This document shows positions 2,250 to 39,785 of a stretch of 45,704 nucleotides of DNA, one piece after another; positions within the stretch are counted from its first letter, which is position 1, and each line of letters opens with the position of its first letter. This DNA is from an uncultured Faecalibacterium sp. GTDB lineage: Bacteria; Bacillota; Clostridia; Oscillospirales; Ruminococcaceae. A program made the position numbers and the translations under genes. The notes under the pieces were generated by a model. The model was not told the origin of the DNA. It made no database searches and worked only from the letters and a program-made list of their open reading frames with translations. The stretch is taken from assembly GCA_904394215.1 (NCBI GenBank), contig CAJFNF010000021.1, positions 1-45,704 of the forward strand. The letters run 5' to 3'.

Positions 2250-3401
2250 TCAGGACAACCGCATTTTGAAATCCTGATAGCCAAAGCGGCGCACGACTTC
2301 ACAGCTGCCGTCCTGATGCCGCAGCGCTATATCCGGCAGCGGCATACCATTGAAGGTGTTATTTTTCACCATGGAGTAGATGGCCATATCGCCGAAAACC
2401 AGCCGGTCGCCAACCTGCGGCAGCACATCAAAACTGTACTCCCCGATCACATCCCCAGCCAGGCAGGTGCGGGAAGCCAAACGACAGGTTACCTTTTTTT
2501 CACCCGGCAGACCACTGTCAAACAGAGGCGGACGGTAAGGCATCTCCAGTACATCCGGCATATGGCAGGCCGCCGATGTATCCAAAATCAATACCGGCAT
2601 GTCGGTAGCCTGCACCACATCCAGCACTGTGGTAATCAGTGTTCCAGCCCCGAGGGCAATGGCTTCCCCCGGTTCCAGATAGACAGTCACATGGTACTTT
2701 TCCCGGATATACAAAATCAAGCGCTCCAGCACTGCCACATCATAACCAGGACGGGTAATATGGTGGCCGCCGCCCAGATTGATCCATTTCAGGCACGACA
2801 GATACTGACCGAATGTTTTCTCAAACGCTGCAAAGGTTTCCACCAGCGGAGCGGCATCCTGCTCGCACAGAGTGTGAAAATGCAGGCCCTCTACCCCTTC
2901 AGGCAGCTGATCCGGCAGATTCTGCCGCCGGATTCCCAACCTGCTGCCGGGAGCGCAGGGATCGTAGATGGCGTGGCCATCCTGCGTCGAGTGCTCAGGG
3001 TTAACCCGCAGCCCTACACTTACTCCGGCCGCTTCCCAGACCGGACGGTGTGCTTCCAGCTGCGCCAGAGAATTGAAGCTGATATGGTCGCAGATGGAGA
3101 CCAGCTCTTTCATTTCTTCCGGCGTATAGGCAGGACAAAACACATGGTTTTCCTTGCCCGGCATTTTCTCATAGGCCAGCCTGGCCTCAAACAGGCCGCT
3201 GGCAGTAGCCCCCGACAAATACCGGGCAATCAGAGGATACACACGGAACATGGAAAATGCCTTCTGCGCCAGCAGAATGTGGCAGCCGGTACGCTCCTGT
3301 ACACGCTGCAGAATTTCCAGATTGTGAACCAGCGCCGTCTCGTCCACCACGTAGACAGGCGTGGAAAGCGTTGGTTCCTGATTCATCAAGTAATCCATCA
3401 T
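2250..3401 (-). CDS. nspC: Carboxynorspermidine/carboxyspermidine decarboxylase
   Basis: This 383-residue PLP enzyme has the alanine-racemase-type barrel of group IV decarboxylases. Lys47 in LLAQKAF is the probable PLP lysine, and [10 protein letters not shown] and [10 protein letters not shown] are family segments. It removes the carboxyl group from carboxyspermidine (or carboxynorspermidine) to give spermidine (or norspermidine). The start ATG overlaps the stop of the upstream dehydrogenase by four bases (ATGA), which implies translational coupling of the two consecutive steps. A second in-frame ATG at 3398 is an equally possible start. Confidence 0.93.
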
Positions 3402-4660
3402 TCCACCACAGCGGGATGCTCATCCACAACCCAGGGCAGGCCATACTGGTTCAGCATCTCCATAAAGGGATCGGGATCCATCTCCTCCAGGTTATAAACG
3501 CCGGGTTTGCGCCACTGGCCGTTGGCCACCAGGGCAGTACCAATCATAGCAGGCACGCCAGTGGTATAACTGATGGCCTGACTTCCCAGTTCCTTGTAGC
3601 ATTCCTGATGATCGCAGACATTGTAAATGTAGATGGTCCGCTCTTTGCCGTCCTTAACGCCGGTATAGATGCAGCCGATGTTGGTTTTGCCAACGGTACG
3701 GGGTCCCAGCGAAGCAGGATCCGGCAGCAGAGCTTTCAGGAACTGGATGGGGACGATCTCTTTGCCCTCATACAGGATGGGGCTGGTGGAGAGCATTCCC
3801 ACGTCCTCCAGACACTTCATGTGGGTCAGGTAGCTCTGGCCAAAGGTCATAAAGAAACGGATCCGCTTGACGCCAGGGATGTTCTTGGCAAGGCTCTCGA
3901 TTTCCTCATGATGCAGCAGATACATGTCCTTCTCGCCCACCTGCGGGAAATCATAAACCCGCTTGATCTCCATGGGCTTGGTCTCAACCCAGTGGCCATC
4001 TTCCCAGTAGCTGCCGTTGGCCGAGACTTCCCGCAAATTGATCTCAGGATTGAAGTTGGTGGCAAAAGCATAGCCATGGTCGCCGCCGTTGCAGTCCAGG
4101 ATATCAATGGTGTGGATCTCATCAAAGTAGTGCTTCTGCGCATAGGCAGTAAAGACGCTGGTGACACCCGGGTCAAATCCGGAGCCGAGGATAGCGGTCA
4201 GGCCAGCTTCCTCAAACTTTTTGGCATAGGCCCACTGCCAGCTGTAGTCAAAGTAGGCAGTGAAGCCTTCCTCTTTGCACCGCTTCTCATAAATAGCACG
4301 CCAGGCAGGATCATCGGTGTTTTCGGGCTCATAGTTGGCTGTATCAACGTAGTGTACACCGCAGGCCAGGCAGGCATCCATAATGGTCAGATCCTGATAC
4401 GGCAGCGCCACATTCAGAACCAGATCCGGCTTGTAAGCCTTGATCACCCGCTTCACGTCTTCCACATCGTCCGCATTGACCTTCATGGTGGTAATTTTCA
4501 CGGGGGTACCGGCAGCTTCCAGCTTGGCTTTCAGCGCATCACATTTGGACACCGTGCGGCTGGCAATGCACAGCTCCGAAAAGGTCTTATCGTTCTGGCA
4601 GCACTTCTGGATCGCCACCGATGCGACGCCGCCGCAGCCAATAACAAGCAGTTTGCTCAT
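3398..4660 (-). CDS. Carboxynorspermidine/carboxyspermidine dehydrogenase (saccharopine dehydrogenase family)
   Basis: A 420-residue member of the saccharopine-dehydrogenase family, with an N-terminal Rossmann motif VIGCGGVAS at about residues 6-14. In the CASDH branch of the family the enzyme condenses aspartate semialdehyde with putrescine (or diaminopropane) using NADPH. Overlap with the partner decarboxylase nspC identifies this branch rather than a lysine-pathway enzyme. I chose the ATG at 4660 because AAAGGAG lies nine bases before it. An in-frame ATG at 4678 would put the ribosome-binding site inside the gene. The family name lys1/lys9 is often attached to such proteins but would be misleading here. 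Confidence 0.92.
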   Translation of the reverse strand: MSKLLVIGCGGVASVAIQKCCQNDKTFSELCIASRTVSKCDALKAKLEAAGTPVKITTMKVNADDVEDVKRVIKAYKPDLVLNVALPYQDLTIMDACLACGVHYVDTANYEPENTDDPAWRAIYEKRCKEEGFTAYFDYSWQWAYAKKFEEAGLTAILGSGFDPGVTSVFTAYAQKHYFDEIHTIDILDCNGGDHGYAFATNFNPEINLREVSANGSYWEDGHWVETKPMEIKRVYDFPQVGEKDMYLLHHEEIESLAKNIPGVKRIRFFMTFGQSYLTHMKCLEDVGMLSTSPILYEGKEIVPIQFLKALLPDPASLGPRTVGKTNIGCIYTGVKDGKERTIYIYNVCDHQECYKELGSQAISYTTGVPAMIGTALVANGQWRKPGVYNLEEMDPDPFMEMLNQYGLPWVVDEHPAVVE

Positions 4661-4710: not shown

Positions 4711-5574
4711 TCAATCTTCTTCTTCCTTCAGAAGATCCTCAACATAGCGCGGCAGCATAAAAGCGCCGCGGTGCAGATGGGGGGTGTAATACCAGGTCTT
4801 GATTCCCCGCTTGTTCCAGCGCTTGGGGTCAAAGTCCTTGATGGGGTGGTATTTTTTGCTGGCAAAGCCGAACAGCCAATACCCCGCCGGGCAGGTTGGA
4901 ATGTGTGCCTGATAGACACGACTGATGGGAAAAGAACGGTAAGCTTTTTTATGCATGGCGCGGCAGCTCTCTTCATCTTCATCGAAGAACGGGCTCCCAT
5001 GCTGATACACCATGATACCGTCCTCATGAAGTGCCTTGTAGCAGCTGCCATAGAACTCCTTGGTAAACAGCCCGGCTGCATGTCCCAGCGGATCGGTACA
5101 GTCATTGATGATCAGATCATATTCGTCCTCTTTGCTCCGCAGAAACCGCAGACCATCCTCATAGTAAACCCGGACCCGGATATCGTCCAAACCGCAGGCA
5201 TTATCCGGGAAGAATTTGCGGCATACATCCACAAACATCTTGTCCGGCTCCACCACGTCAATTACTTCAATCTCCTGATAATAGGAGAGCTCTCTGGCTA
5301 CGCCGCCGTCGCCGCCGCCGATCACCAGAACCCGCTTTACATCGGGATGGACCGCCATCGGCACATGCACGATCATCTCATCATAGGTAAACTCATCCTT
5401 CTCCGAAAAGATCACGCTGCCATCCGATGTCAGGAACCTGCCAAATTCAGGAGAATCAAAGACATCAATCCGCTGAAAGTCACTGGTTCCGCTGTAGAGT
5501 TGGCGATCCACCCGGATACAGGTCTTCACATTGGCCGTGTGCAGTTCACCAAACCAATAATCCATTTCCTGCAA
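4711..5574 (-). CDS. speE: Spermidine synthase-type aminopropyltransferase
   Basis: The 287-residue protein has the spermidine-synthase layout: an N-terminal beta-hairpin domain (YWFGELH), then the nucleotide-binding GGGDGG at residues 86-91, VVEPDKM, and the catalytic DCTDPLGHA segment with FTKEFY. It transfers an aminopropyl group from decarboxylated SAM to putrescine or a related amine. The start is probably TTG at 5574, because AAGGAGGG lies about seven bases upstream; the ATG at 5565 is poorly spaced. No SAM decarboxylase (SpeD) gene is in this window, although the enzyme needs its product. The exact amine acceptor cannot be read from the sequence. Confidence 0.92.
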   Translation of the reverse strand: MQEMDYWFGELHTANVKTCIRVDRQLYSGTSDFQRIDVFDSPEFGRFLTSDGSVIFSEKDEFTYDEMIVHVPMAVHPDVKRVLVIGGGDGGVARELSYYQEIEVIDVVEPDKMFVDVCRKFFPDNACGLDDIRVRVYYEDGLRFLRSKEDEYDLIINDCTDPLGHAAGLFTKEFYGSCYKALHEDGIMVYQHGSPFFDEDEESCRAMHKKAYRSFPISRVYQAHIPTCPAGYWLFGFASKKYHPIKDFDPKRWNKRGIKTWYYTPHLHRGAFMLPRYVEDLLKEEED

Positions 5575-5594
5575 GATATACCCTCCTTTCAGAA

Positions 5595-7043
5595 TCAGGC
5601 CAAAACATTCAGTTCCGAAATATCTTCACTGGCCGGTCCCTGCATGGAGCAGCCTTTGGCCTTGGCAAACTCGATATAATCGATGATTTCCTGCGTAATG
5701 ACTTCCCCCGGCGCCAGGATGGGGATTCCCGGAGGATAGCACATCACAAACTCCGTGCAAATCTTTCCTGCTGTCTCCCGCAGCGGCAAGCTGACCTTGG
5801 GCGAGTAAAACGCCTGCTGCGGTGTCGCTTTCACCTGGGGCGTAATATATTCGGCTGTAAACAGGCCGCTGCGGGGCTTGGCATAAAGGCGGCGGATATC
5901 AGCCAGCGCCCCCACCAGACGTTCGATATCCTGGATACGGTCCCCAATGGAGATATACGCCAAAATGTTGGACAGATCCCCGAACTCGATCTGGATGTCG
6001 TATTCATCCCGCAGAAGGTCATACACTTCAATACCGGTCAGTCCAATGCCCCGGGTATTTACCGCCAGCTTGGTGACATCAAAGTCATAAACGCTGCCGC
6101 CATTGATGATCTCGGAGCCAAAGGCATTGTAGCCGCCGATGGCGTTGATCTCCCGCCGGGCATATTCTGCCATATCGATGACTTTGGCAAAGCTCTCCCG
6201 GCCCCGCATTGCCAGATTCCGGCGGCTGATATCCAGGCTTGCCATCAGCAGGTAGGATGCACTGGTGGTCTGGGTCAGATTGATGATATTCCCCACATAG
6301 CCGGCGTCCACATTCGGACCGCACAGCAGCAAAGAGCTCTGGGTCAAGCTTCCGCCGGACTTGTGCATTGAGACAGCCGCCATGTCTGCACCGGCAGCCA
6401 TGCCGCTGAGGGGCAGGCTTGGATTGAAATACAAATGGGTCCCATGTGCCTCATCCACCAGTGCCAACATGTTGTGCGCATGCGCCATCTCCACCAGTTT
6501 GCGCAGATCCGAGCAAATGCCATAATAAGTCGGGTTGTTGATGAAAATGGCAACGGCATCCGGATTGGCCTCGATGGCTGCCTGCACATCCTCAATTTCC
6601 ATACCCAGCGGGATACCTAGGTCTACATCCACCTTTGGATCAATATAAACCGGCACCGCCCCGCACAACACCAGCGCATTGATAGCGCTTTTGTGGACGT
6701 TACGAGGCAGGATAATTTTATCCCCCGGTTTACAGGCAGTCAGCACCATGCTCTGCACGCTGCTGGTGGTTCCACCAACCATCAGAAAAGCATGTGCTGC
6801 ACCAAAAGCATCCGCGGCCAGTTCTTCGGCCTCTTTGATCACGGAAACCGGATGGCACAGATTATCCAGCGGCTTCATGGAATTGACATCAATGCCGACA
6901 CACCGCTCTCCCAGCAGTTCTACCAGCTCAGGGTTTCCGCGGCCTCGTTTATGGCCTGGCACATCGAAGGGGACGACCCGCTGACGGCGGAATTTTTCCA
7001 GCGCCTCATAGATTGGCGCGCGCTTTTGACGTTCCCGGTTCAA
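5595..7043 (-). CDS. speA: Arginine decarboxylase, short fold-type I (Orn/Lys/Arg decarboxylase family)
   Basis: This 482-residue PLP enzyme is of the short Gram-positive Orn/Lys/Arg decarboxylase type. The N-terminal PFDVPGHKRG, ALVDEAHGTH and the PLP lysine Lys228 in MHKSGGSLTQS are visible, and a C-terminal decarboxylase domain follows. Family alone cannot separate arginine from lysine or ornithine, but co-transcription with aguA and aguB points to arginine, giving agmatine. The start is TTG at 7043, preceded by AGAGGG. The nearby ATG at 7050 is out of frame. It is the first gene of the polyamine operon and follows the structured RNA at 7143-7505. Confidence 0.92.
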   Translation of the reverse strand: MNRERQKRAPIYEALEKFRRQRVVPFDVPGHKRGRGNPELVELLGERCVGIDVNSMKPLDNLCHPVSVIKEAEELAADAFGAAHAFLMVGGTTSSVQSMVLTACKPGDKIILPRNVHKSAINALVLCGAVPVYIDPKVDVDLGIPLGMEIEDVQAAIEANPDAVAIFINNPTYYGICSDLRKLVEMAHAHNMLALVDEAHGTHLYFNPSLPLSGMAAGADMAAVSMHKSGGSLTQSSLLLCGPNVDAGYVGNIINLTQTTSASYLLMASLDISRRNLAMRGRESFAKVIDMAEYARREINAIGGYNAFGSEIINGGSVYDFDVTKLAVNTRGIGLTGIEVYDLLRDEYDIQIEFGDLSNILAYISIGDRIQDIERLVGALADIRRLYAKPRSGLFTAEYITPQVKATPQQAFYSPKVSLPLRETAGKICTEFVMCYPPGIPILAPGEVITQEIIDYIEFAKAKGCSMQGPASEDISELNVLA

Positions 7044-7142
7044 AAAACATCCCTCTCTTTACAGTGTGAATCAAACAAAGCAATCTTTCCCTGGTATGCT
7101 TCGGCAAAATCCGGAATCTGCCCGATCCCCCTCAGACACAAA

Positions 7143-7505
7143 GAAAAAAAGGCAGCGCACCCTTTCGGGCACACTGCCTGTGAGATACAGTCGAGGCGGC
7201 TTTCTTCTTGTTTCAAAGAAGAACTGGCATCCTGCCAAGCCTTACCTTTGGAAAGAGAACTTCAGCAAATAGATCGTAGGGTGGTTCTGCTGCTCTTATT
7301 GACGTTTCACAAGTGGTGTGCATCCGCACAGAGAAATCAAAGTGACCAACTTATAAAATTTCCGGGTGACCTCACCCGTTCAATAATGTTGTGGCGCTTT
7401 ACGCCACACGCGGCAGCGGCCAGCCCTGTCCGATGAGCTTTAGGCGTTTTGGAAATCCAAACAACCCGGCCTAATCTATTTGTGTGCACATGTGTGCACG
7501 CTTTG
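7143..7505 (-). ncRNA. Candidate structured RNA or speA leader, unassigned
   Basis: A minus-strand unit of about 360 nt is bounded by the promoter at 7511-7538 and a strong terminator at 7144-7180. It folds into a series of hairpins. These are TTAGGC/GCCTAA (7474-7440) enclosing TTTGG/CCAAA, TGTGGCG/CGCCACA (7408-7390), CGGGTGA/TCACCCG (7378-7363), TGTGC/GCACA (7330-7317), TGGCA/TGCCA (7237-7225) and TTCTTCTT/AAGAAGAA (7223-7202). I looked for hallmarks of RNase P, tmRNA, SRP RNA and T-box and found none; my recall of clostridial 6S RNA is too poor to exclude it fully. No clear promoter lies between its terminator and speA, so it may be an attenuating leader. A 36-codon ORF inside (7323-7213) lacks a ribosome-binding site. 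Confidence 0.55.
7144..7180 (-). terminator. Strong terminator between the candidate RNA and speA
   Basis: On the minus strand a 13-bp stem (AGGCAGTGTGCCC with its partner, including three G-T pairs) closes a GAAA tetraloop and is followed by seven T residues. This is one of the best intrinsic terminators in the window. It stands 100 bases before the speA start codon. Confidence 0.88.
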
Positions 7506-7510
7506 GCATC

Positions 7511-7538
7511 ATTTTACCATCTTTTTTTCACTTGTCAA
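7511..7538 (-). promoter_or_regulatory. Vegetative promoter for the candidate RNA
   Basis: Minus-strand TTGACA (7538-7533), a 16-bp spacer and TAAAAT (7516-7511) form a near-consensus sigma-A promoter. Transcription would start near 7504 and run into the hairpin-rich region and possibly on to speA. Confidence 0.8.
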
Positions 7539-7678
7539 GGCTTTGGATGCAAATCCTTTCACTTTTTATTTTTATTTTACAAAAAACATCGGCTCTGCAT
7601 CACAAACACTCGAAAAATCTTTGTGGCAGACAAATGCTTCAAGTGCTGAGCATTTTCCCCGCCCTGTACAAAACCTCT

Positions 7679-8527
7679 TTAGACTCCCGGCGTTTCCACT
7701 GGCTGGGTCCCGAAATAAGCGCAAATCGCATGGTAATAAACCTGGGCTGTCAATGCGCAGCCATCCTGGTCACCAAAGCGGTCCACATCTGCGGCGCTGG
7801 TCACAAAGCATTGCTCCGCCAGCACCGCCGGGCAGTTTGATTCCTCCAAAAGCGTAAAAGTTTCTTCTTCCCGTACCCGCAGATCGTTGGCCTCTGCCAA
7901 TACCTTTTCGCCATCTTCATAGTAGATATACCGGATTCCGCCATGCCCCCGCAAGGTGCTCCCGGCAGCTTCCATGCCGGACGCCAGGAGCCTGGCAAAA
8001 TAAACGCTCTCCCGGTGCCATGTGCGTCCCGGCGTAATGGGATAACACTCAAAGCCGCCGGCCTCTGTTGCCGCAGAATTCCCATGGATGGACAACAGCA
8101 AGTCCGGGTGCTGGCGGTTGGATGCCTCGGCCCGTTCCATGGGCGTTGCCGTGGTATCATAGCTGTCCCGGGTTGTCACCGGTATGTAGTTGGGATCAGA
8201 CCAGAGCCAGCTGAGAAGCGCCTCCGCGGTCTCCGCTGTCATATCCTTTTCCACAATCACGCCGGTAGCGCCCGGGTCATCTCCGCCGTGGCCGGCATCC
8301 ACTGCAACAGTATAGGGCGGCTCCCCCACATCAGGACGAAAATCTTCCGCCGGTTCCTCCGTTGCGCTGGCTTCACGAATGGCATTTTGGGCAGCAACCC
8401 ATTCGCTGCCGGCCTGCCAGACTTTGGGAAAGCCGATCACAATCACCGCTGCTGTCACCAGCAGAGGCCAGTGGAATTTGCGCTTTTTTCCGTGTCTGGA
8501 TTTTGTACGTCTTCCCTGTTTTGACAT
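7679..8527 (-). CDS. N-acetylmuramoyl-L-alanine amidase (Amidase_3, CwlD-like)
   Basis: This 282-residue protein has a basic N-terminus, one membrane segment (about residues 19-33) and then a zinc amidase domain. The motif AVDAGHGGDDPGATG (from about residue 75), SIHGNSA and LAEQCFVTS are the family zinc and active-site segments. It cleaves the amide bond between muramic acid and the peptide stem outside the membrane. I start at the ATG at 8527, preceded by GGGAGGGG, rather than 22 codons upstream. CwlD makes muramic lactam in spore cortex in related bacteria; whether this copy does so is an inference. Confidence 0.85.
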   Translation of the reverse strand: MSKQGRRTKSRHGKKRKFHWPLLVTAAVIVIGFPKVWQAGSEWVAAQNAIREASATEEPAEDFRPDVGEPPYTVAVDAGHGGDDPGATGVIVEKDMTAETAEALLSWLWSDPNYIPVTTRDSYDTTATPMERAEASNRQHPDLLLSIHGNSAATEAGGFECYPITPGRTWHRESVYFARLLASGMEAAGSTLRGHGGIRYIYYEDGEKVLAEANDLRVREEETFTLLEESNCPAVLAEQCFVTSAADVDRFGDQDGCALTAQVYYHAICAYFGTQPVETPGV

Positions 8528-39610: not shown

Positions 39611-39644
39611 AAAAAAGCCCGCCTTTTGCAAGACGGACTTTTTT
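39611..39644. terminator. Terminator of the candidate small RNA
   Basis: AAGTCCGTCTT and AAGGCGGGCTT, extended by A- and T-runs, form an 11-bp stem plus flanks around a GCAA loop. A-rich and T-rich arms make it bidirectional. Confidence 0.85.
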
Positions 39645-39785
39645 GCACACGAAGTGAGGCATCGCCTGTGTGGCACAACCATACAGCTGAGAAGGAGAAC
39701 AGCCGGAGGAGGAAGTGGCTGCGCCCGACACCTCAAAAGCAAGAAGAAAAAGATTTCACAGTCGCCGTAACGGCTCTCTGCTGTA
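39611..39785 (-). ncRNA. Candidate small RNA with CU-rich loops
   Basis: This region of about 175 nt is bounded by a promoter (39791-39819) and a strong terminator (39611-39644). It has a 5' hairpin (TTACAG/CTGTGA enclosing GCCG/CGGC, 39786-39756) and a larger element closed by TGAGG/CCTCA (39735-39655). In that element AGCC/GGCT displays a loop ACTTCCTCCTCC (39716-39705); a nearby TTCTCCTTCT is at 39699-39690. Both are complementary to ribosome-binding sites, as in trans-acting small RNAs of other Gram-positives. No protein frame fits. I do not recognise the family. Confidence 0.5.

Follow-up and report, generated by a model that had tools for sequence, protein, structure and literature searches.

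The window analysed here, a stretch of 45,704 nucleotides from an uncultured Faecalibacterium, raises the question of what the structured RNA encoded at positions 7143-7505 does in front of a polyamine operon. The initial annotation regarded a metabolite-sensing leader and an independent non-coding RNA as equally possible. Its coordinates for the interval were right, the RNA itself lying on the minus strand. This work suggests that the RNA is probably (at a probability of about 0.72) a cis-acting, transcription-attenuating riboswitch of the polyamine operon, which would be turned off in the presence of a polyamine, its putative ligand. The transcription signals and the downstream genes are as follows.

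7511 to 7538, minus strand: promoter, with the -35 element TTGACA at 7538-7533, a 16-nt spacer and the -10 element TAAAAT at 7516-7511
7144 to 7179, minus strand: intrinsic terminator of 13 bp with a GAAA loop and a U tract at 7149-7144
5595 to 7043, minus strand: speA-type Orn/Lys/Arg decarboxylase (PF01276), with a TTG start
5574 to 4711, minus strand: speE
4678 to 3398, minus strand: carboxynorspermidine synthase-like gene (410 bits, under the model cut-off of 800)
3401 to 2250, minus strand: nspC
2226 to 1150, minus strand: aguA
1125 to 244, minus strand: aguB

The signals that delimit the transcript proved to be as the initial annotation had described them. The promoter is the sole promoter-like site in a scan of 7000-7700 (score 11/12, with TG before the -10 element; shuffles average 0.5 sites), and in close relatives it is arranged as in the window. 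The terminator, whose stem of 13 pairs and 4-nt loop occupy 7179-7150 (minus strand), is the strongest of four terminator-like sites in the same interval, where shuffles average 1.1, and is followed by TTTTTTCTTT. The promoter scan also bore out that no promoter-like site lies between the terminator and speA. The purine-rich sequence AGAGAGGG, at 7058-7051 on the minus strand, stands upstream of the TTG start of the speA-type gene. The sole NCBIfam match of this gene, to the lysine decarboxylase LdcC, scores 82.9 bits where the cut-off is 968, and its sequence assigns it no more closely than to the Orn/Lys/Arg decarboxylases. Among the scanned loci listed, the SpeA of a Gemmiger record (L172) is the most similar to that of the window, with 90.6% identity, by which the window probably derives from Gemmiger or a close neighbour of it.

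The minus-strand transcript of 371 nt folds at -132.9 kcal/mol, compared with -109.6 +/- 5.2 kcal/mol for its shuffles (z -4.49, 0/100), and the plus strand is likewise structured (z -4.25). Ten hairpin loops were counted by eye in the minus-strand fold, where at least seven had been claimed. The interval contains no minus-strand open reading frame of 60 or more amino acids, and the ATG at 7322 has no visible Shine-Dalgarno sequence, in keeping with the earlier statement that it holds no coding frame with a ribosome-binding site. A leader peptide, the short frame MHTTCETS read by eye from this minus-strand ATG, was dropped as a candidate: no ribosome-binding site is visible, and part of the subtype lacks the ATG. 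Nor does the interval match any Rfam family at gathering thresholds. RNase P, tmRNA, SRP and 6S RNA, the families whose detection the initial annotation said would remove the leader idea, appeared neither at those thresholds nor among the weak matches. A housekeeping RNA was accordingly rejected, ARAGORN finding only two tRNAs in the window. Seven weak Rfam matches, mir-651 among them, occur around the interval, each far under the gathering score of its family; four of these, including the best, which is to a miRNA model, fall outside the RNA. Near the window's far end, at 39632-39739 on the minus strand, there is an IMPDH RNA (RF02994, 101.8 bits), a family of the sRNA type.

Conservation of this RNA extends beyond the genus. 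When 199 related genomes were searched at the DNA level, 34 gave matches, the window's own genome included. The leader was matched over most of its length at nine loci, comprising the window and eight loci of its genus, and most of the other loci match only window positions 7290-7361 or slightly more; two loci of this search (L026 and L030) resembled the terminator and promoter by chance, and were discarded. A covariance model of the conserved core, R1, was built over 129 positions (a 129-nt core) from 23 training sequences, which include the window and were drawn from the kinds of genomes that were later counted. Within the genus, R1 matches 27 of 31 genomes (21 of the 22 more complete ones); it further matches 100 of 394 genomes in a sample of the order (E<=0.001) and 25 of 398 in a sample of the phylum (E<=0.01), the latter two counts being lower bounds because these samples were scored with stricter filters. 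The window's own match (G000:C21:7249-7386) has an E value of 2.8e-14, the window being part of the training set. Two weak model matches (L077 and L081), in which the core finder saw no core, were set aside. An exact-pattern scan of the genomes of named species returned at least 120 stretches, 80 of them named. Among the matches listed, the organisms include Faecalibacterium prausnitzii, Gemmiger, Blautia, Paenibacillus, Bacillus, Neobacillus, Acetobacterium and Acidaminococcus, all of which we take to be Bacillota. The alignment columns show the core to be very conserved across these different lineages. From the fold and the alignment, the RNA can be divided into the following parts.

7484 to 7499, minus strand: 5' hairpin GTGCACACATGTGCAC, seen in the fold and variable among relatives
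7266 to 7482, minus strand: domain closed by the long-range helix P2, which pairs CAAATAGAT (7482-7474) with ATCTATTTG (7274-7266)
7411 to 7471, minus strand: 5' subdomain, the counterpart of RF02440, of subtype B (GGCC..GGACAGGGCUGGCCGCUGCCG), aligned to RF02440-positive relatives
7391 to 7407, minus strand: hairpin GUGGCGUAAAGCGCCAC, which covaries among relatives
7296 to 7386, minus strand: core, defined by alignment, structure and the R1 match
7386 to 7380 with 7302 to 7296, minus strand: core helix A, UUAUUGA with UCAAUAA
7378 to 7363, minus strand: core hairpin B
7358 to 7346 with 7316 to 7305, minus strand: core helix C, UUUUAUAAGUUGG with CCACUUGUGAAA
7329 to 7318, minus strand: core hairpin E, GUGCGGAUGCAC
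7253 to 7297, minus strand: 3' hairpin AAGAGCAGCAGA / UUUGCUG..UUCUCUU, an alternative to P2
7308 to 7321, minus strand: candidate antiterminator strand in the core, GCACACCACUUGUG, whose duplex with the terminator arm has -19.5 kcal/mol
7169 to 7182, minus strand: candidate partner of that strand, the terminator 5' arm CACAGGCAGUGUGC

A further hairpin of the relatives, D, is not evident in the window's core. As P2 and the 3' hairpin both use UUUGC, they are mutually exclusive.

Comparison of relatives indicates that part of the leader helices covary. The 219 leader rows of the alignment reduce to 103 that are less than 85% identical, and to 102 after one was dropped for its alignment coordinate, with an RNAalifold consensus of -72.9 kcal/mol over 264 columns. 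Across these 102 leaders, 91.7% of cells are paired, compared with 89.2% after column shuffling and 34-50% in slid controls. In the structure with the 3' hairpin, both sides have changed in 128 cells, compared with 39.1 in the shuffled alignments, and 22 pairs contain such changes, compared with 12.0; the covariation score exceeds those of all 500 shuffles. Where P2 replaces the 3' hairpin, the both-sides-changed cells number 161 against 54.8, and the covariation score is 0.133 against 0.087. Three of the four inner pairs of P2 are kept with both sides changed, in 18, 15 and 5 leaders, and in its three outer pairs the changes are confined to a single side. Slid versions of the structure match the real one on the number of pairs with both-sides changes (up to 21, or 23 with P2, against 22 and 23) and on pair types (66, or 70 with P2, against 63 and 68), but do not come close on cells paired, both-sides-changed cells or covariation score. 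Helices A and C show almost no variation, and therefore covariation is uninformative on them. A pseudoknot suggested by eye, between CAGAGU in the loop of the 5' hairpin and ACUCUG after P2, failed on the alignment, which is poor in that region: for three of the six pairs, the leaders able to form them number 7/84, 12/84 and 31/84.

The genes that follow the core are uniform in function. Among the matches listed, which are at least 120 copies, all 111 that could be tested precede a polyamine gene on the same strand. Among the 120 listed, the core is followed first on its own strand by a SpeA-type gene in 40 copies, by a carboxynorspermidine synthase-like gene in 29, by SpeD in 25 and by PotA in 17; in the remaining nine the downstream DNA, of no more than 312 nt, is too short to judge. 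This test used eight reference proteins within 2500 nt of the core, and the polyamine genes among these matches start 129 to 501 nt from it. The relatives collected before the pattern scan have downstream proteins of the same polyamine kinds, the automatic choice of start having taken a spurious earlier frame at some of these loci. The RNA is thus a leader both conserved and structured, followed by genes of coherent function, as expected of a riboswitch class. In several potA-type leaders (L132, L029, L106 and others), CUGCCGA is followed by an additional hairpin-like insert, perhaps marking a potA-linked subtype; a few others (L075 and L170, for example) have one too. Known riboswitches also lie on the opposite strand near two of the leaders: a c-di-GMP-I riboswitch at 2651-2742 (plus strand) of L058, about 0.9 kb away, and SAM and FMN riboswitches at 4487-4588 and 5447-5583 (minus strand) of L221, about 1.8 and 0.8 kb away.

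The 5' subdomain connects this RNA to an existing Rfam entry, RF02440 ("SpF59 sRNA / ldcC RNA"), which is 54 nt long. A match to RF02440 lies shortly 5' of the core in 45 of the 58 relatives given to Rfam (14/20, 19/20 and 12/18 by batch), and all 17 genomes of the 398 in the phylum sample that contain RF02440 also have an R1 match. Hence, in the relatives examined, the 54-nt family is best regarded as the 5' portion of an RNA of about 235 nt. A further eight R1-positive genomes of the phylum sample have no RF02440 match, the window's own among them, the gathering threshold (37.2 bits) being reached neither in the window nor in its genome. Alignment with RF02440-positive relatives nevertheless places the window's subdomain at the homologous position relative to the shared core, and it retains CGGACAG..CUGCCG at the equivalent place. 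It also lies upstream of a decarboxylase or other polyamine gene, which we take to be the meaning of the name ldcC (a position before a lysine, ornithine or arginine decarboxylase or another polyamine gene). RF02440 differs in being 54 nt long and filed as "Gene; sRNA", whereas the RNA of the window's type comprises about 235 nt and a terminator. The window carries a divergent subtype, B, that RF02440 misses, with GGACAGGGCUGGCC in place of GGACAGCCGGGUC. The former is found in 21 of the 219 leader rows, which count repeat records of one genome again and represent 12 distinct sources for these 21; another 151 rows have GGACAGCCGGGUC, and 47 have neither. The subtype-B loci L002, L010, L172 and L221 are likewise under the RF02440 threshold. 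Both RF02440-positive and RF02440-negative subtypes occur within the window's genus before speA-type genes, for example at L031 and L001. The ldcC motif probably stems from a 2017 survey of 224 candidate RNAs; in the open-access literature, no paper was recognisable by its title or the start of its abstract as being about this RNA.

Transcription termination is as consistent a feature of these leaders as the genes that follow them. A terminator hairpin follows the core in 85 of 86 distinct leaders and in 98 of 101 dissimilar ones. It is strong (-15 kcal/mol or better) in 89 of 98 leaders, compared with 10 of 160 stretches taken at random from elsewhere in the contigs, in 63 of which the same finder detects any hairpin at all. 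The leader, or attenuator, reading of the initial annotation is therefore supported by conservation beyond the genus, by the polyamine gene after every testable listed copy and by these terminators.

That annotation had found no evident antiterminator pairing. In the set of leaders, however, the CUUGU strand of the core is complementary to the 5' arm of the terminator. A 5/5 complement of CUUGU, allowing G-U pairs, is present in 72 of 85 arms, compared with 21% of 1620 control windows, and among dissimilar leaders in 77 of 98 arms, compared with 18% of 4800. Other terminators of the same contigs carry it in 95 of 270 cases, compared with 90 of 107 for the leaders (p 2e-18, near-duplicates included), or in 47 of 119 compared with 35 of 43 when only dissimilar leaders are used (p 2e-6). 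Native core-arm duplexes have -13.1 kcal/mol and permuted ones -11.0 kcal/mol (44 dissimilar leaders, 0/5000), and the in-register flank at -8 to -1 pairs more than its permuted counterpart (0.404 against 0.347, 9/5000; 12/5000 in an earlier set), the permutations and Fisher tests leaving some relatedness among leaders. When only the variable bases are scored and register is ignored, native pairs do no better than permuted ones (1323/5000), and bases +5 to +7 show no clear excess (553/5000 and 123/5000). As roughly 35-39% of unrelated terminators carry the complement, a single leader proves little, and the strength of this evidence lies in the set.

In the window, GCACACCACUUGUG (7321-7308) can pair with CACAGGCAGUGUGC (7182-7169) at -19.5 kcal/mol. 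The best upstream partner of the arm covers CUUGU in only 48 of 85 leaders, one of which was not computable, and in the window it is GGCCGCUGCCGCGUGUG, at -21.9 kcal/mol, ahead of the core site. This strongest duplex involves positions 7418-7432 (minus strand) and neighbouring bases in the 5' subdomain, which is also the best partner in the close relatives L002-L009 (-19.5 to -21.9 kcal/mol). It may reflect either chance or a second alternative pairing. When transcripts are folded only as far as the 5' arm, the probability of arm-core pairing reaches 0.5 in just 20 of 98 leaders, with a median of 0.01 and a value of 0.03 in the window. Equilibrium energies alone hence favour other folds, even without ligand, which could reflect kinetic folding, the need for a factor, or an energy model that misjudges so large a domain.

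These elements suggest a mechanism in which the domain of about 235 nt, closed by P2 and containing the RF02440/ldcC subdomain and the conserved core, would act as the sensor. With the core folded, CUUGU would be locked in helix C, the terminator would form and transcription would end before speA. Were the core not stabilised, GCACACCACUUGUG would be free to pair with the terminator 5' arm CACAGGCAGUGUGC, and this duplex would serve as an antiterminator and permit read-through. An end product of polyamine synthesis, spermidine or a closely related compound being the most likely, would stabilise the sensor and so turn the operon off, presumably without the need for a protein. It is the gene set, through gene context and gene names, that suggests such an end product as the ligand, and the terminating OFF mode is more certain than the ligand's identity.

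Alternative explanations differ in which of these steps they replace. The same attenuation might operate with the balance of folds set by a protein, the ribosome or RNA-polymerase pausing rather than by a bound polyamine. The gene context, terminator and antiterminator complementarity would suit any attenuator, and most truncated transcripts fold with no ligand-free preference for the antiterminator, such that its formation may require a factor or depend on the kinetics of folding. Conservation of the core across lineages is nonetheless what would be expected of an aptamer, and no conserved leader peptide was seen: of the 21 subtype-B rows, which come from 12 distinct sources, 14 (8 sources) keep the sole ATG checked, that of the MHTTCETS frame, and seven (4 sources) lack it. 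We therefore regard this explanation as unlikely. A genuine sensor of another ligand, whether S-adenosylmethionine, decarboxylated SAM, agmatine, an amino acid or Mg2+, would be compatible with the SAM- or amino-acid-linked genes that follow the leader, as speD and aminopropyl transfer depend on SAM, while arginine or lysine feeds the decarboxylase. Yet what SpeA, SpeD, the carboxynorspermidine synthase-like protein and PotA share is the synthesis and import of polyamines, and the presence of a transporter gene in this position favours polyamines over SAM, for which no family match was found at any leader given to Rfam. Another ligand is consequently quite improbable.

Least credible is an independent, trans-acting sRNA that stands before polyamine genes by chance, as the Rfam class of RF02440 would imply. 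The RNA does have its own promoter and strong terminator, and RF02440 is filed as an sRNA gene, but a terminated leader would resemble an sRNA anyway. Such an RNA would not be expected to precede one of four polyamine gene types, on the same strand, in each testable listed copy, nor to have a terminator arm tied to the sequence of its core. The independent non-coding RNA is thus no longer on a par with the leader, none of the testable listed copies lacking a polyamine gene, and we consider it very improbable. The preferred reading remains that of a polyamine-responsive, terminating riboswitch.

Polyamine genes are already known to be preceded by regulatory RNAs. The spermidine riboswitch described in PMC10853860 is a SAM-I variant upstream of polyamine genes including ldcC, and terminates transcription on binding spermidine via a terminator/antiterminator arrangement. 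By that description, it shares with the present leaders both its position before polyamine genes and its mode of control, and differs in its SAM-I aptamer, as neither the window's leader nor the leaders of relatives given to Rfam have a SAM-family match that would indicate a SAM-I-like fold. The odc1 and potE motifs (PMC8632094) and the speF motif (PMC11477304) have also been proposed to control polyamine genes. As described in these sources they are tied to other genes, and are set apart from the RNA considered here by those descriptions rather than by structure; the window's leader matches no Rfam family at gathering.

On balance, we lean towards RF02440 being a fragment of a widespread polyamine riboswitch class of Bacillota, about 235 nt in length and distinct from the SAM-I-derived one, in which the 3' strand of the most conserved helix is tied to a co-evolved terminator arm, and of which the window's subtype is unseen by Rfam. 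This suggests correcting the RF02440 entry, where a 54-nt fragment is filed as a gene for an sRNA. Polyamines are obvious ligands for riboswitches, although the validated class described in PMC10853860 consists of rare SAM-I variants. The leader described here is found before speA, speD, carboxynorspermidine synthase-like genes and potA, in bacteria of both gut and soil. Hence, if this reading is true, the control of polyamine genes would become directly testable in bacteria of the Faecalibacterium/Gemmiger, Blautia, Paenibacillus and Neobacillus types.
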